DNA of 64,000 nt from Litoditis marina. Lineage: Eukaryota > Nematoda > Chromadorea > Rhabditida > Rhabditidae. This document shows positions 673 through 60,365 of this stretch, in pieces (position 1 is the first letter of the stretch; the number at the start of each line of letters is the position of its first letter). The DNA lies in contig OZ038435.1 in the NCBI GenBank assembly GCA_964036275.1, forward strand, positions 18,103,632-18,167,631, given 5' to 3'. The notes beneath the pieces are model-generated. The model had not been told where the DNA came from. It saw nothing but the letters and a program-made list of their open reading frames with translations, and made no database searches. The position numbers and the translations under genes are program-made.

Positions 673-1160
673 TGGCAGGTACCAAGTTTCAATTGTTATA
701 GCAACCATTTGTAGCAACCATTGTTGTTGTTGCTACTTGAAACACGAATATTGTTAGTTTTCTAGTCGGTTCAAAGTCGCCAAAGCACAATTGCTCGCGC
801 TGGCACTCAACATTTGAAGGTTTTATGGAAAACAAAACGGAAGAAAAGTTACAGTAAACCGGTGCGGGTCAGGGCATTTGCGCCAGGGCCAACGAGTGGA
901 TCAGAGCACGTCGAGAATCTTTTTCGAAAAAAAAGGAATGAATAAACAATTTTATCAAGTAATTGAAATAGAGGACAAAGCTTCTTTTCACGAAGCAAAG
1001 CTTCATGATAATTTTCTCGGAGTTTCCATATAAAAATTCACGCTACGTAACATTTAGGTACCCCCTAAACAAGCTCTCCACACGCCTTCGCCCTTCTTTG
1101 AGTATCATTATTTTTCTCCCCTTCGAGCTCCCCTTTGAATAAATACTTCTCCATTTGCTC
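673..1160. other. No gene seen
   Basis: AT-rich, mostly unique sequence with a short GTAGCAACCATTG direct repeat near 700-730. I find no exon-like frame with plausible splice sites here. Confidence 0.5.
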
Positions 1161-1194
1161 GTATGTCGATCATTAGTATAAGTTTTGATTGTTC

Positions 1195-1801
1195 TTCTCT
1201 CAAATTCGTTCTGTCTTTCGCGCTATATCTCCCTTTCTTTCTCTCGCCTCCCCTTTCTCTCTCTCTCTCTCTCTCTCTATCTCTTTCTCTCTCTCTCCCA
1301 CCCCTCTTTCTTTCTCTATTCTCCTCCCTCTCTTTCTTTCTTCCTCTCCCACTCCCTCTCTTCACTGTCTCTCAAATGCCCCATCTCTTTCATGATTTTT
1401 TGGTATCAGTGTGGTCCCTAGGCAACAACAACTTAAAGCCAAAATAGGAAAACCTTCTTCGAACCACTTTGCATTAATCTTCCAGTTCGCCTTTTCTTGT
1501 CTGAACCTCATTTTCGTAAACTTTCCTGGAAGTTGGGAGGGGGGGGGGGGGGGGGGGGTAAACACGTATTCCACCCCTTCCGCATCTCCTGAAACCGAGG
1601 CCAAATAAAATTGGGCTCGGAAAAAGGACAGTTTTGAGGATTTCCGTCCGGTTTTCCGAAAATCTCCTATTTGAACGCGTTAAAGTGCAGTTTTTTGAAT
1701 ATAAAAGGGTATCACACCTCGATCCTAATCATTCCTACGGTTGGCAGTCTATCAGGATGAATCTGCTAAAGTTGGTTGTTGCTCTGCCCGCTTTCATTCT
1801 C

Positions 1802-1861
<60 letters not shown>

Positions 1862-2660
1862 TCTCTTTCTTTATATTCTCTCTCTGTCTTCATTGGCGCT
1901 TCTTTCTCTGAATCCCTCCCCCTTTCTTTTTCTATAATCATCTCTCCCTCTCCTTCTCGCGCATCAACTCTTCTTTTCTTTTCTTTTCATCTCATCACCT
2001 CTTATTTTTTTCTACTGGTCTTTTTATCTTCATCCTTCTCTTTTCTCTCTCTTCCTTTCCTCTTTCCTCTCTCGTTTCTCCCTCTTTTATTCGTTCTCCT
2101 TTTTCCATTCTCTTTCCTTTTTTCTACCGGCCTTTTTATCTTCATCCTTCTCCTTTCTCTCTCTTTCTTTCCTCTTTTCTCTCTCGTTTCTCTCTCTTTT
2201 ATTCTTTCTCCTTTTCCATTCTCTCTCCCCTCTCCCTTCTTTTATCAACTCTAGACTCTTTTTCTCTCTTCTTTTTACTCTATACTCTCTACTCTCTCGT
2301 CTCTCTCTCTCTTCTTTCTTTTTCTTCTTTCTTCTCTCTCTTTTCTTTCTCTTCTTCCTCCTCTCACCTCTCAACTCTCAACTCTCTACTCTATTGTCTG
2401 TCCCTTTTTGCTTCTCTCAGCTCTCTCTCCTCTTTTTTCTTCCTACTATTTCTTCACATTCCACTCTTTCCACTCTTTCTACTCTCTACTCTCCACTCTC
2501 TACCCTCTTCTCTTCTCACTTCTATTCTCTTCCTTCATCGTTTTGTCTCGCTCCCTTTGACTGATTCTCGCTCGTATCGTGACTTGTGATATTGCTTCTG
2601 CTCTCTTCTTTGTTTTGTTTATTCTATCTTCTCTCTTTTGTTCTCTTCCTTAATTGTTTC
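1195..2660. repeat. Long polypyrimidine/polypurine tract with (CT)n cores
   Basis: About 1.4 kb in which the + strand is nearly all C and T. Pure CT runs lie at 1257-1280 and 1803-1857, followed by degenerate CTCTTT/CTTTCC blocks to 2660. A run of about 20 G interrupts it at 1538-1558. All open frames in it are low-complexity (Ser/Leu/Phe or Arg/Glu/Lys) and should not be called genes. It resembles the GA/CT blocks in intron 1 of the two secreted-protein paralogs, but no matching exon is adjacent. Confidence 0.85.
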
Positions 2661-2816
2661 TCACCGTTTTCTTATTCTCGCTCGTGAACTTTTACCACGG
2701 TAATACAAATTCAAACAGTTTCGTAGTGTAGTGAATGAACGCAATAGACACTCTTCTACTCTGCGTCTCTCACACCCCCTATCCCCCCCCCCTTTTGTAG
2801 CGGCCTCGGCGATAAA

Positions 2817-4190
2817 ATGTGCAGGTCAGAGAGACGCAGATCGTCTTCGCCTGTCTGCGGCCTCATTGCCCTGCATGCTCTCTTGCTCTCATTGATTGCT
2901 AATTGCGACAAATTGGCGCCCATCGTTCTGAGGAACGGAAACTCTACTTTCAGACTTCTTCTACATTCCGCTCTGATCGTTCATTGCTTTGGCTGGTGGG
3001 GAGGTGACCTTGTTGACGGTGCTGTCGGTACCGTCTCGTCTGTTGCGAAGGATGCAGAAAAATTTACGGAAGCGGCAGTCAAATTTGTAAGGGAAGCTCC
3101 GGGTCAGTTTTCAATCCATTCGGTTAGGTTCTTTCATCTCTATTGTTGCAATTGTGATCATCACAGGAGCAGCCGTTGACGCCGTAAAGAAGAGAATAGC
3201 AGAAAACGGTGACAGGTACGCTTTTCAAGTCTGAAACTCTTTCGGCTGACCATTAGATAAAACAGGGCTCAGGACATTACTTTTTCCTCGTGTTTTAGGT
3301 AAGGGGCTTTCTCAGCTACGGAAATTGATTCATCACTAGCATCTAGCGAGCAGGATTTGGTGAGAGGCTCTGTCTTGGGTGCATACTCGTTCTAACTATA
3401 TAATTCCGAAGAATCTGCTTAGAAGAAACATCCCGCTCCGTCCCCCGCGGCACCTTCAAAATCTCCTTCGGCATCACCGTCGGGTCAATCCTCGCGTAAG
3501 ACTTTGGCGCCAACGGCCGCTCCAACTACAACAGATTGTGGCAAAGATGTCAAAAGTCAAGAACAGCTCGAAAAGACATGTTCTTATCGTTTTATCTCGG
3601 ATTCGAAAGAGGTGAAAAATATGCAAGCAGTCGCGGACAAGAAGAAATTCAAGAAAGAGAAGGCGGAGCAATACATCAAAACTATAGATAACGTGTGCAG
3701 GTGCATTTTCTGTCTCCCCTAGTTTCATATATCATCAAATGCTGTGTTAGAAATCATGCCATTTATAGTGGGTTTTAAATTTATAAGTTTCGGTCTCTCG
3801 CCGGAATTGAACCTGCGAGCAAAAGTTTCGTAACAGGCTGGCTTTGGAATCGAAGACATGTGTGCGTACACAGCGGAAAGTGAGACATACAGTACCTTTA
3901 GGTTGGCGACGAATATACCCAGGCATGTCAATCCTCCAATCCGACTAGAAATGAACTAACTCGCGCACCTCTTGTGTCAGTGTGTTTCAGGGTTCGGTTT
4001 TGTCTTTGTTTTTTCCATTCTTCAGTTTTTCATACATTGTCATATTTTCAGAGTAATGGGTGTATGGAGCCGTTCTGGAGTGTATGGAGCCGTTCAAAGT
4101 CGAGTGTGAGTCTGGATATGACAAATATGTCGGCAATAATGAATTTTTCAAAGGGTTCGGCGAGCTGGTGGAAAAGCATACTGACTACAA
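2817..4190 (+). pseudogene. DUF19 (T20D4.11-like) gene, apparently broken
   Basis: Exon-like pieces on the + strand lie at about 2990-3086 (a DLVDGAVGT...AVKF helix), 3128-3215 (a hydrophobic FISIVAIVIIT segment), 3316-3359, 3423-3692 (Ser/Pro linker, then TTTDCGKDV...LEKTCSYRF) and 4052-4190 (CMEPFKVECESGYDKYVG, then GFGELVEKHTDYK). The Cys pattern of the last two is that of the nematode extracellular DUF19 domain. Phase agrees between 3359 and 3423 and from 3692 to 4052. It does not agree between 3086 and 3128, and a 20-bp tandem duplication shifts the frame at 4061-4080. No exon is found beyond 4190, where the 12.4-kb element begins. The N-terminal end overlaps a repeat around 2790-2900. 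Probably a pseudogene, unless an unusual acceptor at 4080 rescues it. Confidence 0.45.
3766..3930 (-). repeat. tRNA-derived SINE, family S (A box deleted)
   Basis: The reverse strand carries the family head (CACTTTCCGCTGTGTACGCA), the ATGTCTTCGATTCCAAAGCC block and a B-box-like region near GAATTGAACCTGCGAG. Compared with the copies at 39500 and 54748, the stretch holding the A box is missing. It lies in an intron of the DUF19 gene. Confidence 0.65.
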
Positions 4191-4260
4191 GTGAGCTCTT
4201 ACTATGAGTAGTTGCGGCCGTCTCACCTTTTAACTGTTGTTCATCAGCCTGCGTCCTAAG

Positions 4261-4425
4261 ACAATCGTGGGCTTCTAGCGCGCCACTAGGACGCTAGTAG
4301 CACGCCACCTCAGCGCTATTAGCAAGCCATTTGCGCGCTAATGGCGCCCTGCTGGCGTGCTAGTAGCGCTCTGATGGCGCGCTACTAGCTTGGGACTGGC
4401 GTGCTACTAGCGACATCAAACGGCC
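4261..4425. repeat. Left terminal inverted repeat and subterminal repeats
   Basis: After the terminal repeat, about six degenerate copies of a GC-rich motif occur in both orientations: GCTAGTAGCACGC, GCTATTAGCAAGC, GCTAATGGCGCC, GTGCTAGTAGCGC, GCGCTACTAGC and GTGCTACTAGCG. In CACTA elements such arrays bind an element-encoded DNA-binding protein; the same role here is inference. Confidence 0.75.
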
Positions 4426-4831
4426 TCGTACTCTACAATACGGTTTTATGAAAAATAATAACCTTTATATAAATGAGAAATGGATGACAACAGATAACGT
4501 AATGGTTTATTGGATAATCTGGCCACAATGATCGCGAATGATCAAAACAAAAACAATGAACAGGTGCGAACAACGTATAGAAATCTTGCAGAAATCTGAT
4601 AAACTCAAATAAAGCTATAACCAGGGAAAGAGATAACGATTCACACAATTATGACCAAGATAGGGTTTCGCTTTGGAATAATATTTGATTGGTATTATGA
4701 ATATAAGTAACAACAATTTTTCAACATTGTCAACTATGGTTTAGTGGGAGGAAACAGTGAGAAGTCTACGAAAAGCTAGAAAAGTGAGGCGATTGTTAGA
4801 CCAGTCAATGAGTACAGACAGCAGTGATACT

Positions 4832-4837
4832 TTTATT
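4832..4837 (-). terminator. Polyadenylation signal AATAAA of gene C
   Basis: The reverse strand reads AATAAA 14 bases after the TAG stop of gene C (4851-4853), the normal distance for a nematode 3' end. Confidence 0.6.
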
Positions 4838-4850
4838 TTGGGACTAGCAA

Positions 4851-7800
4851 CTAACCAGACCCACTATTCTCATTTTCATTAGTATCGTCGTCCTTGTGAA
4901 TGTCATATTGCAGCTGATCTTGCGAGCCGCGTTTCTCCTTTAGCATCTTCTTAAATGCCTCGCATTCCTCACGGGTCTACAAAATGAAAATAAAAAATCT
5001 ATGTGAGCGACCCTGTTTCAGTACTTTTGTACTTTAACTTGCGAAGTGGGTAATTTTAATTTGAAATAGTATATTTCCTTGAGAAGTGTTTCTTCCTTTC
5101 TGAACCGTTGGACAAACTTGTTTGAATAGTATAGTTGAAAGATGGGAAACCGTGTGGGAAGAGATTATATGAAATATAATGATAGAAGTTGTAAAAAAAA
5201 CTCACCATTCTCTTCCAGCTGATTGCATTAGTGACAGGAGTGTAGATGACTTTGAGACGGCGAATTTCATACCTGAAGGATGTTTGTATAGCTACAAACC
5301 TAAAAAACATTGCATGCATCCCCAGTGAGATACAACTATTTGACGAATGTTGTCTGATTTGAACTGCGTGAAAATAAACTATAAGGAAAAGACGAATTGT
5401 CTTGTTTTTGTCGAAAAAGTAGTCTGTAGTTCGACTTTATCTGGCTTTTCAGATAGCAATACAATTACAAGTGGGAGGTAACAGTACCATTGCTGAAGTG
5501 ATACTTAATCTAGCCGTTAATTGAAAGAGCAATAACAAAGGTAGTCGATTGCAACAAAGGAAACCTACACAGCGGATTGGACAGCTACTAGAAGATTTGT
5601 ATTGATCCATTCATTGCGCTCCACTCTCAATTTATCCAGATACTCAGCCTTTTCTTTGATAGATTCTCCGGGAAGACGGGTGAAATATCTAAAACTAAGC
5701 AGATTATTGACGACACCTGCATACTACCGGTTCAAAACACATACACTATAATCCTGTGAAGTAAAAAATAAAACCAGGTGAATATGAAATGAAAAGGAAA
5801 TGACGCACTCTGTGGGCTTCTCCAAAAGCGTGGAAGTCGGATACTGGGTACCATCCAATTCAGGCACGTCCAAACCAAGCAGCCCCGAAAGAGCATCTGA
5901 AAGTTTGAAATGAGGGAATAAATTGTGGCTCTTTAAAAACTTACAACCTCTAATCCCAGAAAGCACGATAAAACCAGTTTTTTTCAGAATTTGTTCCACT
6001 ATTTAGGTTAAAAGAGCAAGCATAAAATGAAAAAATACCAAGTCTAAAGTTCGAAATGAACTGAGTGAAACTAGACATACCAAAAAGAGTTGCCTGCGTT
6101 CTTTGTGGGAAGGGAACATAATCGTCATTCACTCTGCCCAGCCTTTTCGTGCAGCTGCTTCGGATTGCGAACTCCCGAATTTCCTCCGGCGGATCGGTTA
6201 ACTAAACGGTCCATAAGAAGTTTCAATTACTAGCAACAACATGGATAATTATAAGACACAACAACACTCAGTAAAGTTGTCCAAATGACCATAACTAACT
6301 CAGAAACCTGGTTGCATTTGAGGTTAGTTCCGGGAGAAGAGTGCTTGATCATATCTTGAAAGTTTGTGGCTGAAAGAAGTGATGGTTGAGACAAAGCAGT
6401 AAACTTTCACCTGTTGTAAAATCAGTTTTGTAGCTTCTTTAATGTGTGCTATCTGATCGTCACCTTTCGGATTGAAGAGCCGAAGAGCTTCCTTCGTCGA
6501 TACTTTCTGAACGGTTTTGTCAAATATAGTTGAAAAGACTGTTGTCACGAACCAAGCATAAACAACATAAGTGCATGTAATACAGTAAACAGTGGAGAAA
6601 GTTGATAAGGAAAATGTGATTAATATAATATGTTTAATTCGTATGAGGTTAGATAGTGATACAATGATTCACTGTAGACTAGAATAATGATAGGAACTAA
6701 TGATAGTGTAGTGAAGAAGCCTTACCTCCTTGAAAGGAGCGTTTCCAACAAAGAAGTAGTCCCGAGTGAGATTGCTCAAATTCGCTTTCAGTAGTAGAGG
6801 AATATTCTCCACTGCACTCCTCTTCATCTTACTGGTGACTTTTTTCGAAACGCTCTTCACATTATCCATGACTCGAGCTGAGCGAGCAAACAACATGTTC
6901 TGCTGAATAAGGGAAACAAGTATGAGAGATTACAGAAAACGCTTTTTGACGGAAATATTTGAACATCATGTGTGTGACTCGATCGACTTAATCGCAAAAA
7001 CAATAAACAAACTTTATAATAAACTGAATCGCGCGTAATGGAGATCAGTGATACGCTAACGTCTAGGGAAAACAAACAAACAGACATAATAATAAAAAAG
7101 TGGAACAAACCGAAAGTGCAACTCCTTTTGCAAATATGGTGTGCAGGAACGCCTGTTCCTCTGGGGTCCCTGCTTCATTTAGAGCTTGTTCAAAACCTCG
7201 TTCCGTGCTCAGAGTAACATCACAGAGAGGCCAGCTGCGCAGAGCCTCCTAAAAATTACACCGTCGAAAACAATGTGATGCTTTGAATGGCATTCTCTCA
7301 CGACTTCCCCAACTCGGGTTACAGTGGGAACATGACTATGAAACGTTGTCTTGCACATTCTGATAATGGTCATCTTGAGACTAGGGGCAATGCAATGATT
7401 TCGCGCTTGAAAACAAATGGAAAATTCAGTAAGTACCTGGTAACGAGGTCCAGAAGTAAACTCTGGTTCATATTTCTCTTCCTGTGCGACAATATACCCA
7501 GCGTGATACAAGTCCAAACATCCATTGGTGACAGCAGCCGCAAATTGATCTGGCAAGCAAATAAAGAACACATACACCAGTACGGTAAATATAATTTGTC
7601 AAAAAGGGTCCGTTTTTAGATTTAATGCCGCAGAAATTGAAAATTTCGGGAGAATTGCGTATGAAAGTACAATTAATTACTTGAGATTTCACATGAAATT
7701 CTAGAGCTAGGTAAGCGAGGAGAACATTGAATGTGAAAACTAGATGAAATGTACCTGCTAAACAGCTTTCCGGTTGGCCATTCCCGTTGTCAAGATCTTC

Positions 7801-8801
7801 CACCGTTTCTTGACGTTCATCCAGATCGTATTTGCCCGTTGTGTACAGATTAGCAACGTCCACTTGAAAACAACCGGTTAACGACCAGATAAAACATGGT
7901 AAAATAAAGGTATCCTAGTTAGACATGAGGAGAAATGCGGCAAGTTTTGTTCTTCTCGGATGGCAATTGCATCATTCAGCTGTCTTGAACTGTCCGCTAT
8001 GCTAACAAAAGTCCTAGTTTTTCGTGATTTGTATTGTTTTTTCCCCAATACAAATTCATGAATAAACCTTAAAAAAAGTAAATTCTGAAATTGAAGAGAA
8101 TTTCTCGAAAAATGAACCAACCATGCGCATGAGTAACTTGTTCCTGAATCGGCAAATCCGTATCTGATAGATATACTCGACGGGGCGGTGGATCGCTCAA
8201 TCGACCGACAATTTGGCTGGTTCTGAACAAGGCTTTTAAGCAATTTCTCACTTTCCGTTCTAGAACTTTCAAACACATTTTAACGGGTTCTTAGATAAAT
8301 AGTAACTGGACTTTATGTCTGTCTACTTTCTATGCAGAATGACTAAATTTAATCCGACCACACTGGCCTTTGCCTGGCCCCGACTAAGTTAACACAAAAA
8401 GATCAGCAGCTCACCTTTTTGTAGTCGGAGTTCTAAATGGATCATTTCCCATTGCTGACAGTGCTGACCTCTTCACCGTCCCTTTCAGAGTTGGAACTGT
8501 AAACTTAGATGTAGTAGGTCGATAACTATGGGACACAACAACTCCAGTACTTGTCCAATTAGCCAGCCATAAAACTTTGATGGTTTGTTTGAAGAGTGAA
8601 AAATCTATACGAACCGAACGCGAAAACTTATAGCTTTTGGAACAGAACGCGAAAACTTATAGCTATTCTTTTTCACCGAGTAAATTCTTATTGTTTAACA
8701 AAAAATAGGAACCAACCTCTAATCTGTTCCTTTGTTGGAGGAACGAAAGGTTTCTGCTCCATGTAGAGAGCAGCTCGAGAGCTTGGCGTCACCGGGTGCA
8801 T
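4851..8801 (-). CDS. Gene C: unrecognised 506-aa protein of the transposon
   Basis: Fourteen exons keep one open frame: 8717-8801, 8415-8496, 8138-8259, 7755-7862, 7437-7549, 7111-7248, 6726-6902, 6411-6506, 6081-6201, 5948-5998, 5809-5896, 5569-5688, 5206-5299, 4851-4976. The ATG at 8801 directly follows a TCCAG acceptor, 210 bp after the stop of gene B. It could therefore be a downstream operon cistron. Alternatively it could be spliced in phase onto the last exon of B using AAAGTGTAA as a donor. The product is soluble, mixed helical, without signal peptide or membrane segment. It has a basic patch (KKVTSKMKRS, exon 7) and an acidic C-terminus (KDDDTNENEN). The third exon is the least certain; an ATG at 8278 in another frame is an alternative start. 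I do not recognise a domain. By position it may be an accessory factor, as in CACTA elements that encode a second DNA-binding protein. Confidence 0.65.
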
Positions 8802-9011
8802 CTGGAGTTCAGATCACTATATAATCATGTCAACGGAAACAAAAACCACGCGACAATTTGAGATGATCAAATACAGCAGGTATTAGGTGGAATCACCAAA
8901 ATATGGATGAGGCCAGTGAGTGAAATACAAAAATATCAGATTCATTGCAATGAACACCGGTACGAAAGATAGTTAACAATGTAGGATGAAGTAATTGCAC
9001 TGAGAAAATAT

Positions 9012-12000
9012 TTACACTTTGGAAACGTAAGTGTGGCCGCTCACGGGAATGGTGACGGCGTGACCTCGGATCGACTCTGAGTCAATAGTGACAAGAGTTT
9101 CTCCTGTCACTTTATAAAAGAAGGAATTATGTTGCGAGCAGAGGTTTAGCAAGCGGAGAGCTCTTCGCTTGAGTGGGTGTTGAGATCGATTAACAGTGTG
9201 AGATAGATCAAAAAATGGATCCGTCAAATGAAACTGCTGAAGAAGACATTGAGACTGTCCGGTAAGGGGACTGCTTCGAAACAGAACTGCGCGTCCGAAC
9301 GAGATCACTTCGGTATTGTTGACTCTCCTGAGGTACCACAAAAGGTGATGCTGCGTGGTCTTGCACCGCTTCCAGTACAGACCAGAACAGAACACATTTC
9401 CTCGAATGACCAATCGTTTGCTGAAAGGGTTCAAAAACTACAATTCCAGAGAAAATGTACATCATTGTCCCCCCCCCCCCATTTAATTGGAGCTCTGGAA
9501 AAATCATCGCTGGGAAAAAGAAAAGAGAAATGGAAACAGCTGCAGTTCATAATGTGACTGAAGCAATAACTGTACCTCACTGTCATCTGGTTTTGAAGAG
9601 CTGATGTGAATAACCTGTGCGCGGGTACCACTTCGGCAGGTGTGACCGCACTGGCTTCAGGAATGTAAATGTCTGCGTTGATGGGGACCTCACACGTGAA
9701 TCTGGAACATTCACCAGCTGACTTTCCTTTGTGTTCACAAAATACAGAAACGCAGAAGCTCCAGCACACTATCAACATTTTAGACTTGAACCGATCTATT
9801 TGGAGTCATATTAATTATATGTGGAGTTATTATCAGTTTCATTATTATACTCACCCCTCCCATCAAAAGAATGTACTGACCTCTGTACATTCCCGTTCAA
9901 TTTCTCCTGCAGAGAAACATACTCTGCTCGATTCACTATAGGGACGTTAGAGTCGACCAGATTGTTGAACAGTTTGTAAACTTTCTTCGATAAGACAAAC
10001 CTAGAAAACAATCAAACTCACTACGCACGTTAATTACCAACGTCTTCTCTGTTCATGCGTTATGCACTGGAATTAATGAATGTACGGGAACGTGGATAGG
10101 AGAACAAAGTATTAGCGCAAATGAAATCGGACACGTGTACCCACCTTTCTACCATATCGACAGTGCAGTTGGTCTCAGCCTGATTTACCCTCACTTGGAA
10201 CCTCCTATGTGCAGACTCGAATGGAGCAGCAGACCATAGAAATGGAGAGCCCATGTGCGGAGTCTCCTCGCGGATAACGTGATCGAAAAGAGCCTGAAAA
10301 ACTAGAAGAGTTGAGTTCCGTTATAGAGAAGGGGCTAGAAAATTAGAAGAAAAGCATTTGATTAGTTGAGAAGCTATATTCTATTCGATGGTATCTCCTG
10401 AAGATGCCTCAACCATCGAATAGAACAGCATCGTCGAGATTTAGAGGCGGAACGATGCAAATTAATCTAATCAGATCTTATTAACCTATCTTAAGTTGAT
10501 AGTTTTAAAATTTTTCCATTTAATAATTTTTAACTATATTTTGTAACACACTTCCTTTAAAATAACTTTAACTCATATTATTTCACAGTAAAACTCCTTT
10601 TCCCCTTTCTGATATTTACTAATCACAGATGAATAACTCACATGCGCTTTCAGGGAGAGAGACGCAGAGCATTGGGAGAACCAGATGTATTTAACATGTG
10701 TGGCAAGCTCCTTCACGATATTACAGTTGTCAATAGTTAATGTGGTTCTGCTTCTCAAAAGTTCAATCAATAGCCAGTACGCAACCATTGCGGAGGCCGC
10801 GATTGGACAAGGAAACAAATTTCGGGACGCCAGCAGTGGGAAAAGTACAGCGTACAGCTGAAAGCGAAAAAAATAAACTTGATTAACTTCGGAACTCTTT
10901 GAATCACCGCCTTCCCTGTCTCCGAAATTAAAAATAAATGTGTAAATAGCAGTTCAACCCAGTATGTTCTAAACTAATAGTAATAAACGCACCGCGTCGT
11001 TTTCCATCCCTGTCATCTTTGAAGCATCTGAGATGTTCAAAATGAACCTCGAAGAATACGTGCTGTTTACGCACTGCTTCAAAGCCGCTACAACGATTTT
11101 CTTAGAGGCTTCTGATAGTTTCAGGGCTCCGTACACTCCTTTTGGCAAAAACATGTCTGAAAACTTGCGATACGTTCAATAGATTCCCACATGTAGAAGT
11201 TCTTCGCTAGTGACGGGCTCTTGTCTCACAACTGTGAAGCCTGCTATTCCCCAGCAATATAACTAGCAATAATTTTGTTGGCCAGAATATGATTTAGAAT
11301 GAAATGTGTCATATTGGCAAGAAAACTACGAAACAGGGTAAAATAGTTGAAAAGTATGTGCAAATATAATTAACAGGTTCACCTCGGAATCGATCTTTTG
11401 AAACACCTTCGCTGATCAAATGAAGGGCGTCCCCAGGGTACATGTCCTGTGTGAGCAGACGCATCGCTGGTGTTAGACCTGGAAAAGTGTAAATCAATTC
11501 AACACACTACAACTACACTTCGGGTTGGGTGTTAAACCTCATAACAAACTCAAAAGAAAGCCAGTTCTTTTAACTCTTCTGGCTAAAACCAAAATTACAT
11601 ACGCGGAATGCCGTTCCTTCCTGCTCGCCCATCCTGCCGGATTGTGGTGGATGTCCTCCTTCTATACAAATGGGGAGCTGGGTTGTACCAAATGCGTCGA
11701 TTTCCGGATCTTCGTCCGACCATGTCACATTTGTTACACCCGTGTGGAGACGTCCAGCACGGATTGCGGTAGAGGATTTTTAATGCCTAAAAACTTTGGA
11801 GATTTGTATCCGCACCCCGAATACCAAAGCATATCAGTCGTGGGATTATACTCGATCCCCCCTACGAGAAGTATGAACCCAATTCAGAAATGTTATTGCA
11901 CAAGGAGCTCAAGTATGAAGAGTATGGGAGGGGAGGCGCCTTAAAAATCAATATGCAAGCCTTCGCCTCGAAGATCAATAAGCAATGATCATGAGAACAG

Positions 12001-14829
12001 GAAAAAATGGAAGCATAAAACGTAAAGTAAACTTACTGCAAAGTCAGCGATTCCCGCAGATAGTCTCACTCTGATCTCCCACTGCTGTCCATTGACATTC
12101 ACCAAGAAAGGGCTATGACCAGTTTGATGATTTGTAGCCACAATAAACTCTTCAAGCCTGGAATTCAATATCAACTAGTAACTATAAACAAGTACAAAAT
12201 AAACCTAAAACCAAATGCAGAACATATTGCACAAAATCCCATCACCTATGTATGTCGAGAACTCACTGGGTAGATGATAAACTACTTACCTACTGAATAA
12301 AGCCTCCATCAGGTTCAAACTAGGGGCCATGCGTGTAAGGAGTAAACCAGCCAAACAGTAATTGAAATAGTTGTTCCTTATGTCAGGTGAGAGATCTTCT
12401 ATTCGCAAATATACTGGCCAAAATTCCTGCCTGCAAGATACTTATGAAATTTTTTTGGACGTGCTCGTAAACAGGTTAACTCATTCTGAAAGGATCACCG
12501 CATACACCAGTAAGTTTGTCCGAATAGTCAGAAAAATTCGAAAAACGGACTACTTTTCAGCCGAAAACATGAAAATCGGTCTAATTTTGACGAAAAATTG
12601 TAAACTTTCACTTGTTCACATATGAAAACGGTTTACTTTTTGTCGCTTAGTCAGACCTTACTGGTGTATGGATCACTGCTCGACTCACATATTCCCGATT
12701 GATATTCGTTTGCATATGGTGCAGTAGCCTTTGCGGATGACGCGATAAAAAGGGAAAACTAACTTTGAATGACGTCGCGGCACGTAACCATCAGTGGACA
12801 TAGTCAGAACAATAGTGACTTTATGAGCGGCAAATTCATGCGGCGTCTCTATCCTATCATAGAACCACGGCGTTTCATGGACATCGGTACGCATCGAACT
12901 GGCATTTCCCGCTTGCTGCAAATAATCGCTAAAAACAAAACGATCTTCCAGGATGAAATAGAAACCAAAATTAACAAAGAAACTGTGATTCAACAAAGCG
13001 CAAACCAGGAAACTAAAAACTTGAATGGTTCTTATAACTCACATTTACCGTATGTAGTCTTCCATGCAAATCGATGATATCCCGAGCGTACTTTTCAAGA
13101 AGATCATTGAATTGCGAACGGAGATTCAGTAAAACTAGCTCTGGCCTTCTGAGTTCCTTTGATCGGCTGAATTTCTTCCTAAATTGATCAACCAATTATT
13201 CATGAGTACCATGCTGGTCTTTCTGATGTGAAAAATTATTGTCAGATTTTACTTAAAATTATTATTAAAAACATGTATAGAAATATGTAAAACTGATATT
13301 TCTCCTGACGATGAAAGCGTGCAAGTTGAAAAAAACACAGAAAAAAAGTTTCTGGTAGAATAGTACATACCCTTCAATAGAACCGAACAGGATAGATTGC
13401 AGTGCAATTAAAAACGAAACATACCTACGATGAGGACAGCCCCTTTTCTGACAGATCCCTGTTCGTTCGTCTATCAAAGATTTGCAGGCACTACAGAAAA
13501 CATATTTAGCGAACTCCATATCTTCCATTAGTTCAGCAAAAAACGGTTTCAGGTCGGAAGAATACTGAAAACAGAGAATACAAAAATCGAAACGATACAA
13601 TTTCTAGAACGAATAATGTAATTTCTCGAGCGAATAATGCAGAACAGGAACATATTTGAACTATTCTCGAGGTGAGAAATCAAATTGAGTGTAAATAAAG
13701 AACAACGAAACGAAATGGATCGTTAAACTAACTGTATGACTTGGCGGAAGACCGGACAACACCTTGATGAGATCTTGCTGTCTTTTCATCTCCTCTTTAG
13801 AAGTCCCATAGTGAAGACAATATGTGGACAAATAAAGAAGTTGCGGATCTGAGCGATTCGAATCTAATTGTAAGAGCTTGAAAACGAAGTAATCAACAGA
13901 ATATCAAACAGTCACATCAATGATCGAACCTAACACAAATTAACTCCACAAATAACAAGACCAGTCATTAAAGAACAATAGTATATAACTAGTGCACCCA
14001 GAAGGAGATGGACACCATATATTTTACCTTCCGATAACATCGGAACAACTATACTCCCACATCTTCTAAAATTACGAGAACCAAAAAAGTATATAAATAT
14101 GCACACCAACCATGATTCATGTGCAGAGGGGGGGCCGGTCCCGGTGCGCCTCCACCACCCGCACGTGGATTTGGCAGTGTCGGATTATTGAAAGGTCCAG
14201 GTCTCAGTTCGTGGTTGAATTCTGGAAAATCCTTACTTAACAAGCGCGAAAAAACAACAGTAGGTCACACAAACATAAATACTCGCAGCGTTTTGAATTT
14301 CAAAAAAAAATGGTGTTCAACAATTCAACATCCTGGGCCGATCGTCACGTTATATCAACTAAATCGAGAAAAATCAATTTTCACCCAAGGGTAAAATATT
14401 ATACATTTCAAAGGATCAAAGACTAGTCTTCAATGTGTGAACAAAATGAAAAGAAAACTTCGTAAGAATATATTTGCACGTACCAAAATCGGAAACTCCT
14501 TCGGTGTCTTCGTCACGCTCAGAGCTACCATGATCTGAAGACGAAGAACCAACTTCCGATGACATATCTACAGTTTGAGCGTCGTCGGGCGTCTCGCGTG
14601 CGCTGTGATTCGAAACTGATGTTCTCCGGGTTATTCTGTTCCATCTGTCTGCTATGAATCCTAAGAAAAAGTGTTTTTAACTTTCAACACATACGTTCCA
14701 TGTTTGCAACAAATAGTGGGGGACGGAAACCCTCATATCACTTTCGAAGTTATAATCTAAGCACTCACTCGAATATCTCCTAAGATTACGAAACGGAGGT
14801 GGTCGTCGCGGATCATTTCGGGCGTACAT
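9012..14829 (-). CDS. Gene B: CMC (CACTA/Mirage/Chapaev)-type transposase, about 830 aa
   Basis: Seventeen exons join in phase with no internal stop: 14769-14829, 14484-14660, 14076-14221, 13733-13876, 13425-13564, 13049-13178, 12689-12915, 12290-12430, 12037-12157, 11603-11786, 11383-11478, 10993-11156, 10642-10857, 10145-10293, 9881-10000, 9576-9701, 9012-9162. The ATG follows a CACCTCACAG trans-splice-like acceptor. An Arg-rich N-terminus and acidic Ser-rich linker come first. A zinc-knuckle-like CSACK..CQKRGCPHR follows at about residue 200. The family signatures come next: TMSTDGYVPRRHSK (first catalytic Asp), WPVY, RLSAGIADFA, HGCNKCDMVG, then YPGDALHLISEGVSKD (second Asp in D..H). Later motifs are MTGMENDA and REETPHMGSPFLW...PFES, the likely acidic third residue. 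This order is that of CMC superfamily DDE transposases. The donors of exons 3 and 17 are the weakest calls. Confidence 0.8.
10379..10425. repeat. 13-bp perfect hairpin in a transposase intron
   Basis: TTCTATTCGATGG at 10379-10391 is the exact reverse complement of 10413-10425, with a 21-base loop. It lies in the intron between exons 13 and 14 of gene B. Likely the core of a tiny palindromic insertion. Confidence 0.7.
12501..12670. repeat. MITE-like palindromic insertion in a transposase intron
   Basis: CATACACCAGTAAG at the left is mirrored by CTTACTGGTGTATG at the right, about 170 bp apart, with internal A/T-rich arms. It sits wholly inside the intron between exons 7 and 8 of gene B. The + strand frame over it is not a gene. 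Confidence 0.65.
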
Positions 14830-14966
14830 TATTCTGTGAGGTGAAAAACAAACATTTAAGTTCAACACAAATGAAAAGTGGATAGAGGTAAATGTGTGGT
14901 ACAAAACCGAAAAAAGCAAACAGTTACTGGAAATTCAATTTAATATCATATTGACACAAATATGTT

Positions 14967-16347
14967 TTACACAATCTCATCTTCTTGATCGGTATACACT
15001 GACTCTTCGGATACATAACCCTCCTGGTCGTTCAACTGCAAAGTAAGCATTTAATGTCACCCATCGAGTAATCGTATGCACATACATAAGCAAATTACTT
15101 GAATTTGCGCTGATTCATCACGAACAAAAACCTTAAAGACGTAGCGACCGGAAGAATACCAGTTTATCGCGTCGCTGTCGATCCGACCCTCAACATGGAT
15201 TCAATTCACAAGGATGAAAACTAAATCAGAAATAAAAAAAATCCACAAACCTTAAGATCTTCGTCCAGTTTTTGCCACTCCTCCAACTCATCGTCTTCGT
15301 CATCAGACGAGAGAGTGTTAGATATTTTCTCTCCATTAACATAACGTAAAACCGGCAACCAGGTGAGCGAACCGCTGAAATGAATGGAATATTTTTTTAA
15401 GATAAATCGCCGAAATCCACAGAATTGAATTATTGTGAGGACAGACAAGAAAAAACTCATATCGTTCATGTTTAGTGGACATACCTAGGGTGCAAATCAA
15501 GTTACATTTCAATAAAAGGTGAATACCTCATTGCTGGGCATACAATATTCGTGGCTTGATCCTCAGAGACCTCCAACTCCGATAAGTTCTCGAAACCAGG
15601 AAAATCGACGTGAGCAACAGGTACAACCAAACTGAAAATCGAATTTTCGCTTGCTTTGTCAGCGAATATGACCGATGGAAATCTGAGCTCGTTTAGTAGC
15701 TTCAAGTCGTCAACTTCACAACAGGACTGCGAAATCTTATTCTCATTACATAAATATTACATACAAGAGGTAGGTAGACTGCCAATGATTCTATCTACAG
15801 TGCTTAAAATGACAAAATCTAAAACACTACCTGGCATTACCGCAAAGGTTGAGATAAGTGAGAGCCGGAAAGCGCTTCTGCAGGATGTTCCAAGGATTTC
15901 TCAACTCGTTGTTTGATAGAATAAGGTGAGTACAGGAAGAGAGAACAGGGATAGAATCCAAAGCATCGTCGTGAATGGAACATCCGCTCAGGCATAGAAC
16001 CTTCAATGATAAACAAAATTCAACCTGTTTAGTGTGGAATTGAGCACACCAGTAGTTGAATTCATTTCGATATACCACACTAGTGGTATTTGACTCTATT
16101 CCTCCGAGAGCAATCCCTTTTTGACAGCTACATACAATATATACAGACAATATATAGAAAAGTGTCCGTCTTTCGAGATATTAGCTTCTTTCTTGCTATT
16201 CAGCCAGCTTTACTGGGTTTGTTTTTGTTTGTAATACAGTTTACTCACTTCTAAATGCTCAAAGTATTGTAGTTTACTCAGCTGACTGCCATCACAAGTT
16301 GAGTCAGACCAATTCACTTCAAAATCTTCTTCGAACTCGTCGTTCAT
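14967..16347 (-). CDS. Gene A: leucine-rich-repeat protein, about 250 aa
   Basis: Six exons: 16249-16347, 15841-16024, 15527-15713, 15251-15374, 15099-15188, 14967-15035. The start MNDEFEEDFE lies 13 bases behind a TTATTTTCAG acceptor with no upstream exon, so SL trans-splicing is likely. Residues about 35-95 hold LRR units (LKVLCLSGCSI, HLILSNNELRN, LTYLNLC). The C-terminal half is acidic (SSDDEDDELEEW; SVYTDQEDEIV). No signal peptide, so intracellular. The exon 2 to 3 junction works only with donor GGTAATG and acceptor TGTGAAG; the more obvious sites give a phase clash. The stop lies 137 bp before the ATG of the transposase gene, a spacing like that of nematode operons. LRR proteins are not usual transposon products. 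It could be cargo or a captured host gene, and it recalls LRR proteins of the XRRA1/tubulin-cofactor type only loosely. Confidence 0.65.
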
Positions 16348-16564
16348 AATTAACTATTCTGAAAATAAGCCAATTGAAAAGGGAAGATAATGACGATGAA
16401 TATGATTTTACAGAGGAAGCCTACAATAGAAAGCGCAAAACCTAAACAAAAGTTAAATACTATTATAATATCTAATATTATTATAAATATAATTATATAT
16501 AATAATACTGAATGGATTTTTAAATGGGGTCACATTCCCGCAAAATATCCCGCCTGGAAAACGT

Positions 16565-16707
16565 GCACGCAGGGCGCTAGTAGCACGCTACTAGCACGCT
16601 ATTAGCACGCTTGTCTGGCACGTCCGCGCTCATATGGCATCAAGTGGCGCGGGCCGCGCTCATATGGCAAAACGATTTCAACTGGCGCGCTACTAACCCA
16701 CGAGTGT
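16565..16707. repeat. Right terminal inverted repeat and subterminal repeats
   Basis: Reading inward from 16707: the terminal repeat, then GGCGCGCTACTAA, a doubled CGCGCTCATATGGCA block, and three near-tandem copies of GCTA[G/C/T]TAGCACGC at 16574-16610. The motif and density match the left end. Confidence 0.75.
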
Positions 16708-16739
16708 CTGAGTCTCCTCAAAATATGCTATTTTTGTCA

Positions 16740-18665: not shown

Positions 18666-21600
18666 ATGTTACTGCCATTTGGGATGCTAGTTCTCACGAC
18701 AGTGTTTCTGTTTGCACTTGTCGCTTCTGTCGACGCCTCTTCTAAACGTGTTTACAAGGTTTACGGAAGTAAGCATGTGCAGACACCAAATTTAATAGGT
18801 ATGATCTTCGAATTAAGAACCTGAACCATAATGAATTCTTCCAACGACTGATATCTACTAATTGTGAGAAACCGAAAACAGAAAGCTGAGAAGACGTGTT
18901 CAATTTTGCTGTTGCAGTTATTTTGAATTTGGATAAACCATTCATTTCACGCAACTATAGAGTCAACTAGCTCTACATCTGTGTTTCTTTTAACCTCTGT
19001 GTACCAAAACAAGAAGAACAAATTCCAGTTGTTGTGTGCCCAGAAGGATACGAAAGACTCGACGACGGAGCTTGTTACAAGGTAATTCAGCAAGTTTGTC
19101 CGCTTCAGAACAATTTGGTGTTCATATAGTTTGACCGAGAATATTATAAAAAAAGGAACCACACCATATCGTCCACTCAAGATGAAAAAATCGACAGTTA
19201 CTTTGTTCTCATGATTGGAGTGTTGCAATCCACAAATTTGTGAAGTTGTGAATGTTTTCCATATTGTTATTATGCTCATCGTCTGTATTTGTTTGTTTGA
19301 AGGTTGTAACGAAGGTGACCACTGTTCTCGATGCGGCCCGACAGTGCGAGAAAAGCGGGGGACGTCTCGCGGAAATTCCTTCCTTCGAGGTATTGTTCCT
19401 GATAGAATAAGTCCTGAAGTTTAATTTGGAACTCCACGATGAGTCATGTATTACTACTTAGTAAGCGCAAAACATCAGAAAAAGACGAATAAGTAGACAA
19501 CTCTCAACGCCTCGGTCCTTTGAATCGCATCACTCTGTTCAATTGCACGTGAAATGACCGATGCGTCGGGATCGGTCTACATAATCATCCTACTTTAATT
19601 TTTTTCTGCTTTCTGTTTGGATTCAGTTTTTAGCGGAACTTCTGTTGATCATTTGGTCTTGTTGTGTTTTTAGGTAAATAACAGACTCGCCCACAAAAGC
19701 GAACAGAAGAATATGACCCTGGGAATGATTTGTACAGGAACCAAAATCACATCGTGCACATACATAACCGGGGAAGATCTCACGGCTGACTCTTACACAA
19801 ACTTTGCACCAGGTAGGTTTTTCAAAACAAAAAAAACATTGCTACTAAAGAAAGCAATTTTTTAACATTCATTCCATGGGTGAACTTGTTCCCAAACCGA
19901 TTCTCCTCGAACCAGAATCAAACCGATTCGCTCCGAATAAGGTGGTTTCTCCAAAACCAAATCTGGGCTGACAGAGATGAGAACGAAATAACTCAACTAT
20001 GTTATGCAGAAGTTGCTCGGCTATTAACGTTTATTGGAGTTTGGTTTGGTTTGAGTACGCAAGTGATTCGGTCTTTCACCAAACCTGCTGGTTCGGGAAG
20101 AAGTTGTCGGGTTTTCGTTCGGCAAGAGTTGGTTTGGGAAGAGATTCGCCCATTCCATGTTTCAAGGTCATCCCAATCCTGAGAATGGCACCTGCGTTTA
20201 CCTGAAAACCTGGGGGGACTATACCAATTACTGGCTGAGTGGAGATTGCGTCACGGAAAATGGATACATTTGTCAGAAGACCGGACGAGGTGGGTGAGCT
20301 CTGACTGTGAAATAAACTCTGAGTTAGTCAGGAAAAAACACTACGAGAACAAAAAACGGTTAGGAATTTCATTGCTCTCTTTCCGAAGTATATCTTGAAA
20401 CATCATACTGAGCTCACACTGAACTTGTGGAAAACAATTCTGCAAACTCCTAGATAGAACGGAAAGCCAGTGGCAAAAAACTGCATAGGATTCGACTATC
20501 TGTTGCATATAAACTGATGTACAACCATTTCCAGAAAAGATTAACGCGTGCGGCTCGGGCTATACAAAGCACAATGGCAAATGCTACAAAATCATTCAAG
20601 AAAAATTGAATGCTACCGAAGCTCATAAAGCGTGTTCTGCACACTGTGGAAGTGTTGTTCACATTGACTCACCAGAGGTTAGTTGGAATCAGGTTGCCAT
20701 GTAGTATTTGTATTTTCTTCATTATTTGAATCGGAAGACGTGATCTCCTTGATAATAAATGAAGCACAAATAGTTTAATTGAATTCAAGTTAACTGGGAT
20801 GAAATTAATACATATAGTTATTAGTGTGGAATATTTTCTCAGGAAAATGAGTTTGTGCGTGCTCTGGCTTCTTATGGAAACAATGATGAGGTGTGGACAG
20901 GAATGAATCTTACGAAAATGATTACTTGGAAAAAAGAAAAAGAAAACACAATGACATTCCTCAAGGACTATCAGAACTTTGGTTTGTTTATTCTGCATTG
21001 CAACGGCTGGTCAATCGTATAGATAACAGATTTGATGATGGCGTGTGGAAATACGGTAAAACACAGCAGATGATACATTCCGGATGAACAATGATAGTGA
21101 TATGGAAATTTCTCATGGCGCAAAAGAAAAAAATTAGAACTCCGAAAAAAATTACGTGTGTTCCCCACATAGCGATGTTGATCGTAAACCCATGAATCGC
21201 AATAGTTTCAGATATTAAAATCGCAATAGTTTCAGATACTAAAATAAATCAAAACCTATAACTTCTCAATTTAGAATTAAGGGGCAAAATAGATGAAGTC
21301 GTGAGTGCGCGCCCAATCGAACTCTGTTCCTTAAAGCGTCAACCCGCCCTAGCTTGCGCCTATTCAGTTTCGCACTGGTTTTTCGGACCATTCGGTATTT
21401 CTACTATGTAAACTTGATACATGGATAATTGAGTCTAGATCATTAGCGCAAATCCAGATTGCGCAAAGCACCGGGCATTGTCGTTGTTGCATTGTGGTTT
21501 AAAGCATGTTGTATTGCTTAACAAAAAAACACGTGCATTATTTCATAAAGCATTCACTTTAGAGAACATGTTTTTTCATAGTACATACTGGTGAGTTAGC

Positions 21601-59345: not shown

Positions 59346-59849
59346 GCAGATTAGTTTTTGATCACAACATTGCGGACTTTCAAAAGTGGTTTTATGCCAT
59401 TTTCTCAAAAACTCCTGAACGGATTTTTGAGATTTTGATGGAAAGAGATAGAGGAGGAAAGGCTTTATCATTGAGCTATTCGATATTTAATGTGCGACCA
59501 GTGATCTACAGTTATGCTGAATATCGTCTCGCAAAAATGTCTTCCGACGGCGGCCGCGTGGCGCGGCGTGGCGCGGCGCGGCGTGGCGCGGCGTGGCGCG
59601 GCGGCCGCAAAACCGACGAATTTAACCGATTCGTCTGAAATTTGGAATATAGTTAGAAACAGCAGAGTTATGTGTAAATCTGAAATCTTGGACCAATCGG
59701 TTGAAAATGAGCCATTTTATCGCCTTGCAAACATTGCATTCAGCTGCTTTCACGATCACTTCTAGATGTGCGGAGTGTGCGAAGTGAGCTGTTGTTTTGT
59801 TTTTTGGTAGTTGGAGTAGATTAAAGTATGTTGAATGAGCAATTAGGTT

Positions 59850-60066
59850 AATCTGTAGAGATCCTGACTCCATAAAAAGGTTAATCGAACAAAAACAAAA
59901 ATGCTGTCCGTGAAAGGATTCGAACCCTCGGCGGACTGGACTGTAGTGCGCTGCTCTGCCGACTGAGCCAAATAGCCACGAAGAGTGAAGAAATGGACGG
60001 CGCCACACGTGCGCTGCCCGAAATCAAGGATTGATCACGGTTTCTGAGAGAAGGCTTACTAACCAA
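59850..60066 (-). repeat. tRNA-derived SINE, second family, copy 1
   Basis: Reverse strand: ATTTGGCTCAGTCGGCAGAG (A box), then GAGGGTTCGAATCCTTTCAC (B box) and a T-rich tail TTTTTGTTTTTGTTCG. The unit recurs 301 bp to the right. Confidence 0.8.
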
Positions 60067-60149
60067 ACTCGTAACGCAGTTTTTGTTTTTAAAGCATCAA
60101 CCCAGCGTGTGTGAATAGATTAAAATATATTGGAAAAGCAATTGTGTTA

Positions 60150-60365
60150 ATCCGTAGAGATCCTGACTACATAAAAAGGTTAATCGAACAAAAACAAAAA
60201 TGCTGTCCGTGAAAGGATTCGAACCCTCGGCCTACTGAACTGTAGTACGCTGCTCTGCCGACTGAGCCAAATCGTCACGAAAAAAGAAAAAATGGACGGC
60301 GCCACACGTGCGCTGCCTGAAATCAAGGATTGATCACGGTTTCTGAGAGAATGCTTACTAACCAG
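60150..60365 (-). repeat. tRNA-derived SINE, second family, copy 2
   Basis: Same blocks as the copy at 59850: GGCTCAGTCGGCAGAGCAGC and AGGGTTCGAATCCTTTCACG. The pair is in direct tandem with shared flank, so it arose by duplication rather than by two insertions. Confidence 0.8.

Follow-up and report, generated by a model that had tools for sequence, protein, structure and literature searches.

Does a DNA transposon of the nematode Litoditis marina carry, beside its transposase, two further genes of its own, and are the three expressed and moved as one? The question is raised by a 12,457-bp element at positions 4256-16712 of a window of 64,000 nucleotides, the whole stretch of DNA that was analysed (contig OZ038435.1 of assembly GCA_964036275.1; here C3:18103632-18167631 of a 262-Mb genome, to which all contig labels used below, C1, C3, C4, C16 and so on, belong). 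All three genes share one strand, as an earlier note on this DNA, made from its letters, had described; it is the minus strand, and along it they follow each other as A, B and C. We read the element as a DNA transposon, bounded by inverted repeats of 30 bp and a target-site duplication of 2 bp, whose three same-strand genes likely form one operon and would move together, and we put the probability of that reading at roughly 70%. This figure, and our odds for the Mirage branch, were slightly lowered because BLAST alone missed a relative of C at a locus on C4 and because the match of B to the Pfam family DUF1258 missed its cut-off.

Ends and insertion of the element

The stretch 4256-16712 is almost certainly a DNA transposon, and its insertion with a 2-bp duplication is shown. 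A repeat search returned an inverted repeat of 30 bp, 4256-4285 against 16683-16712, matching at 25 of 30 positions (83%) across a separation of 12,397 bp, and GCGCTAGTAGC-like, GC-rich repeats at 11/22-bp spacing are present near both ends. When the right end was used in a DNA search, further right ends were recovered at C17:12269459-12269636 (97%) and C17:15331155-15331328 (94%), both of which stop at 16712/16713. The 30-bp end pattern, allowing up to three mismatches, has four places in the genome, two of them in this element, and chance ends are ruled out by the 0 matches of its reversed control. The surrounding sequence is a repeat with at least 25 other copies among the matches listed, and in five of the seven copies that were fetched it has the uninterrupted form CAGCCTGCGTCTCC, which is the window minus the element and minus one TC. 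It is from the inverted repeat, the other right ends, the end-pattern search and these empty sites together that the element is placed at 4256-16712 with a duplication of TC.

The earlier note had thus been right to see a DNA transposon with inverted ends and GC-rich subterminal repeats on both sides, and the two C17 right ends agree with the right end given here, a check that it had proposed. Its ends, at 4261 and 16707, fall 5 bp short of the true ones on each side, and the inverted repeat that it gave as 25 bp with 21/25 matches is real, at a greater length. As an observation on the two C17 right ends themselves, they have about 315-318 bp in common (L019:1363-1678 and L020:1361-1674; 87% alike), of which only about 175 bp are shared with the element; their left part is unrelated to it, and a recognisable left end was not found there.

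The features of the element, in window coordinates, are these:
4254..4255: target-site duplication TC, left (empty site in five of seven fetched repeat copies)
4256..4285, plus strand: left terminal inverted repeat, starting CTAAGACA (83% repeat match and end-pattern search)
4268..4411: left subterminal GC-rich repeats, 11/22-bp spacing (repeat search)
4851..8801, minus strand: gene C, predicted, 13 exons, 473 aa, without known family (gene model; relatives in the C16 element and at C4)
Gene C exons, minus strand (gene model): 8717-8801, 8415-8496, 8122-8222, 7755-7862, 7437-7549, 7111-7248, 6726-6902
Gene C exons, remainder, minus strand (gene model): 6411-6506, 6081-6201, 5809-5896, 5569-5688, 5206-5272, 4851-4976
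8802..9011, minus strand: B-C intercistronic gap, 210 nt (gene model)
9012..14829, minus strand: gene B, predicted transposase, 18 exons, 863 aa (gene model, catalytic residues, Pfam; homologues at six other places)
10376..10614: high-copy short repeat in a B intron, best 95% to other copies (DNA search)
12501..12670: second, different high-copy short repeat in a B intron, best 97% to other copies (DNA search)
14830..14966, minus strand: A-B intercistronic gap, 137 nt (gene model)
14967..16347, minus strand: gene A, leucine-rich repeat (LRR) protein with acidic tail, about 240 aa, exon 2/3 junction uncertain (gene model, Pfam, PDB; relatives in the C16 and C3 elements and at C4)
16562..16606: right subterminal GC-rich repeats (repeat search)
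16683..16712, minus strand: right terminal inverted repeat, finishing TGTCTGAG (repeat search, DNA search and end-pattern search)
16713..16714: target-site duplication TC, right (flank reading and empty sites)

Three genes and their likely expression

The gene models were made with a simple gene finder that takes splicing into account; its splice weights were set by hand, and its codon usage was learned from the element itself. Its first model fused A, B and C into a single gene of 36 exons; a three-gene model bounded by stop codons is preferred, which is a judgement, because the A-B join of the fused model crosses T-rich sequence of non-coding appearance. The reading frames of B and C are open throughout their 18 and 13 exons, while exons 2 and 3 of A can be joined in phase only by way of a 14-nt micro-exon, so that the exact A protein is uncertain. 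Of the intact element described earlier, an open model can thus be given for B and C, whereas A needs the micro-exon for it; the earlier description of B as an open frame holds, with the model giving 18 exons and 863 codons in place of 17 and about 830.

It seems likely that A, B and C are transcribed as one spliced-leader (SL) operon, because the gaps from stop codon to ATG are short, 137 nt between A and B and 210 nt between B and C, and because the host has genes for both SL1 and SL2-like leaders. The hexamers ATTAAA and AATGAA lie within the intercistronic gaps, AATAAA lies at 4837, directly past the stop codon of C, and the ATG of A is 11 nt past a strong acceptor (score 4.46). The SL1 leader has 864 matches in the genome (269 + 595, with no more than one mismatch) and its reversed control 0; within three mismatches of C. 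elegans SL2 there are 60 matches (control, 2), many of which read GGTTTAAACCCAGTATCTCAAG and stand in arrays spaced by about 403 bp. This form fits the definition of SL2-like leaders, which are confined to rhabditine nematodes (PMC1657053, excerpt), and on that ground the host most likely belongs to this group. One mark of an SL2-type operon is that its genes are closely spaced on one strand and that the host has SL2-like leaders, and both are found here.

The most durable of the alternatives, although we consider it unlikely, is that the three-gene element is real and that A, B and C are transcribed separately or make up one long gene with alternative splicing. Several points weigh in this direction and against an operon: the ATGs of B and C lie 4 and 0 nt past weak acceptors, with scores of 0.2 and 0.41, near the bottom of the range (-0.3 to 4.5) spanned by the 29 cis acceptors modelled in these two genes; the initial model merged the three genes into one; and the operon is read here from the DNA sequence. 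Yet promoters would have little room in gaps of 137 and 210 nt, a stop codon precedes each gap and poly(A)-like hexamers lie within them, and the presence in the host of both kinds of leader gene also speaks for an operon of the three.

The leader genes stand in tandem arrays at C1:64508-90922, C3:21849769-21860686 and C17:5505995-5536541, with spacings of about 1,367 bp for SL1 and about 403 bp for the SL2-like form. The 864 SL1 matches are far more than the roughly 110 genes given for C. elegans (PMC1657053, excerpt). A scan of the window with Rfam at gathering thresholds gave 0 matches.

Protein A, as predicted, has an N-terminal LRR domain followed by an acidic tail, SSDDEDDELEEWQKLDED, which is the layout by which ANP32 proteins are known; its relative A', from a shorter element described below, has the C-terminal end VNDEEEEEDWEE. 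The identification of A as an LRR gene had been made before and stands, with the reservation that its Pfam match, to LRR_4 (E 3.8e-5), reaches 24.2 bits against a cut-off of 27 bits and so falls below it. When A alone is compared with PDB, the five best matches are ANP32A, with E values from 1.1e-4; with a two-row profile, ANP32A is third, behind unrelated LRR proteins, and A' alone has no ANP32 among its 16 matches. An "ANP32-like layout" for the predicted protein is thus a justified description, and orthology to ANP32 is not. At E ≤ 0.001, neither a match to A nor a homologue of C was found in a search of about 5.8 billion proteins, and C has no Pfam family above cut-off, the best being HEAT_EZ at E 0.034. 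The tail of C resembles C. elegans U2A', with an E value of 0.031 for the whole protein, and of 0.0019 for the tail when excised after that match had been seen; we regard this likeness as a weak lead because the motif, judged by eye, is absent from the relative C'.

The predicted transposase and its relatives

Protein B is the predicted transposase. The signature of the CACTA/Mirage/Chapaev (CMC) group is that of a DDE transposase with C(2)C and H(3-4)H between the second D and the last E (PMC12730594, excerpt), and B has, in order, D301 (in STDG), D395 (in ADFA), C414-x2-C417, H617-x4-H622 and E643 (in PFES), with 248 residues from the second D to the E. The signature is therefore complete, as D-D-C(2)C-H(4)H-E, in an assignment made by motif and not by structure, and the motifs GDALHLISEGV, STDG and ADFA, earlier taken as CMC landmarks, are all in B. 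A target-site duplication of 2 to 5 bp was taken as a further mark of CMC elements; it is TC in the window, and TG and AC in two related elements on C16 and C3. We have little doubt that the element belongs to CMC.

Its place within that group is less firm. The best Pfam match of B, and the outcome of a profile check that the earlier note had suggested, is DUF1258 (PF06869; E 5.8e-4, residues 236-355), a family equated with Mirage and found mostly in nematodes (PMC3985635, excerpt). Two points tell against the placement of the element: this match, at 19.9 bits, is below the gathering score of 33.1, and the ends of the element are CT..AG (CTAAGACA..TGTCTGAG; in relatives CTAAGGCA..TGCCGGAG), not CA..TG. 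CMC termini are 5'-CA..TG-3' "in most cases" (PMC12730594, excerpt), and so are not strictly defining. Because the gathering score was missed, the element is filed as CMC and only perhaps as Mirage, a branch that we favour by a little.

Among about 5.8 billion proteins no match to B (residues 150-760) was found at E ≤ 0.001, and PDB gave two matches, the better with an E value of 0.58. A search of the genome returned six homologues, at C4:46790205-46793962, C2:5021508-5025158, C3:2038276-2039456, C16:16283532, C4:2194835 and C474:45919. Compared exon by exon with B they are 31-55% alike, and the weakest of the six matches has an E value of 9.9e-4. The surroundings were read for one of the six, that at C4:46.79 Mb.

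There, at C4:46.786-46.799 Mb, relatives of all three genes keep the order, and the common strand, that the genes have in the element. The stretches read were 5 kb to the left of the B homologue and 3.65 kb on its other side, the 4.5 kb of B between them lying outside. In the left stretch the C-terminus of B (33%) is followed by a relative of C, whose alignment with C scores 85 (mean of 400 shuffles, 37; maximum, 66) and with C' 75 (shuffle maximum, 52). The B homologue is 31-54% alike to B. On the other side a relative of A is 37% alike over 54 residues (tblastn E 7.5e-6 for the 3.65-kb stretch), and after it come, by eye, an LRR-cap exon, acidic exons and an N-terminal exon of B. Weighing against this account of the locus, the ends of the C4 element lie outside the stretches read; tblastn of the C4 stretch gave nothing significant with C (best E 6.1) or with C' (0.28), so that the C relative rests on a gene model, in which it is fused to the end of B, and on the shuffle-tested alignment; and for the A relative, the locus is not among the matches listed in the genome-wide search with A, and A' does not match it. 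With these points counted, we hold it highly probable that the three-gene layout is a trait of the family. The second A-B-C copy that the earlier note had proposed looking for thus exists in diverged form, whereas a near-identical copy of the 12.4-kb form is not among the matches listed in the genome DNA searches, whose counts of further copies are lower bounds.

Two shorter elements (5.2-5.4 kb), with ends related to those of the 12.4-kb element, have A and C without B. That at C16:5050693-5056071 is 5,379 bp long, with ends CTAAGGCAGGCGCGGG.../...CCCGTGACTGCCGGAG and flanks TG...TG, and its host repeat has at least 28 places where the matches to the left and right flanks abut or overlap by a few bases, which is the uninterrupted site. 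A second copy, 99.3% identical and flanked by AC...AC, is at C3:14932284-14937510. The minus strand of the C16 element carries the genes for A' and C', which align to A and to C with z values of 15.5 and 12.1, respectively: A' scores 129 against A where the shuffle maximum is 64, and C' 91 against C where it is 53 (300 shuffles each). The alignment of C' with B does not rise above shuffles, and the genome search with B listed no match at this element. Since B is missing while relatives of A and C are present, both short elements are most likely non-autonomous. Aligned to each other they show 70 substitutions, a number made too high by poor alignment around a gap, with two in A' exons and three in C' exons; the C3 copy has a 1-base deletion in a modelled A' exon, so that selection on A' is not demonstrated.

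A third place, on C202 (L015:1477-2900), has a related end, CTCAGACCCTG, and GC-rich subterminal repeats that are 76% alike and tandemly doubled, with a possible C-like last exon beside the doubled end and no transposase recognised nearby. It was set aside as a full relative, as only the doubled subterminal region and the possible exon were found, and three short B-like stretches in C202, at E 1.4 to 3.6, were judged to be chance.

These relatives bear on whether A and C are the element's own. Were this a normal CMC transposon whose ends happen to enclose host genes A and C, with only B belonging to it, the resemblance of A to host LRR proteins such as ANP32A (E 1.1e-4) and the lack of a further 12.4-kb copy among the matches listed would be explained. 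Against such a capture, relatives of all three genes keep order and strand at C4 in spite of low similarity (31-54% for B, 37% for A), and relatives of A and C are found together within two further elements whose ends are related; because these relatives sit in diverged elements, a recent capture is disfavoured, and we reject the idea as very improbable. Least likely of all is a domesticated or dead B in a static host gene cluster, for although no second near-identical copy is among the matches listed and two short repeats have inserted in B introns, the inverted ends, target duplication and empty sites, the complete DDE signature of B, and two 99.3%-identical related elements on different contigs, which suggest recent movement within the family, all speak against it.

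Proposed movement and known systems

We hold that A, B and C belong to the element, since their relatives have the same order at the diverged C4 locus, and a likely way of working can be proposed. One transcript of the three genes would be resolved by trans-splicing, in which A would receive SL1, and B and C SL2-like leaders, and a cut-and-paste mechanism would move the genes as a unit. Cutting and joining would fall to B, which would bind the CT..AG ends and could act in trans; the spread of relatives that have no B fits a transposase supplied in this way. The GC-rich subterminal repeats at 11/22-bp spacing might be read by C or by B; more probably one of the two proteins other than B, most likely C, would bind them and bring the ends together in the manner of TnpA in plant En/Spm, a protein that binds subterminal repeats and draws the ends to each other. 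A, with its LRR domain and acidic tail, may work at the level of chromatin or serve to link B and C. At somewhat less than even odds, and hence tentatively, we suggest a selfish operon of CMC type that makes three proteins from one promoter through the nematode's trans-splicing, with A as an ANP32-like chromatin factor and C as end-binder serving as a dedicated pair of helpers. The family would be old enough for its relatives in one genome to have diverged to about 30-50% identity, and the A-C module could be present also on elements that lack the transposase.

Many animal DNA transposons carry a transposase alone, and Mirage is known as a transposase-only element with 2-bp duplications. The likeness of the present element to Mirage lies in a transposase with D, D, C(2)C, H(4)H and E, in DUF1258 as best match and in a nematode host; it differs in its CT..AG ends, its two extra genes and its profile score below cut-off (19.9 against 33.1 bits). 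In maize the CACTA element En/Spm encodes TnpA and TnpD in one transcription unit and has subterminal repeats bound by TnpA, and so resembles the element in its length, in having more than one protein, in its subterminal repeats and in its single transcription unit; unlike it, En/Spm has CACTA ends, a 3-bp duplication, alternative splicing in place of trans-splicing and no known LRR protein. Another parallel in build, compared by description, is Sly1-1 of Neurospora crassa, a long CMC element of 11.5 kb with a transposase and a second gene of unknown function that is conserved in a relative; it differs in being fungal and in having two genes (divergently transcribed in the Chaetomium relative), with no LRR gene mentioned in the excerpted text (PMC4592977). 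Fungal transposons that carry TET/JBP genes, and lineages of Kolobok, likewise have one or two accessory genes beside the transposase, but these are dioxygenases, nucleases, helicases and KolX (PMC12730594, PMC9587614, excerpts), and the word "leucine" is absent from the main texts of both papers.

That CMC elements may have an extra gene, and other lineages accessory proteins, is thus already known. Judged by title and the start of the abstract, the literature matches listed include no LRR-bearing or trans-spliced DNA transposon and no three-gene CMC element with an LRR gene; such an element is undescribed among them, which does not prove its absence in print. What the element would add is a case of two helper genes kept with a transposase over a long divergence, with trans-splicing probably used for their expression. 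It becomes testable whether an LRR/acidic protein borne by a transposon opens chromatin for transposition, what C contributes at the ends, and by what means the helpers can be carried and spread by elements that have no transposase gene.

Elsewhere in the window, a predicted protein that by eye is C-type-lectin-like is encoded just to the right of the element (18666-20700, plus strand), and a predicted gene at 59512-62272 (minus strand) contains a reverse-transcriptase-like fragment of a long interspersed nuclear element, recognised by eye from the motif FADDTKVF. To the left of the element a long CT-rich tract occupies 1200-2600 (plus strand), with a GC skew of -0.47 over 1001-3000.

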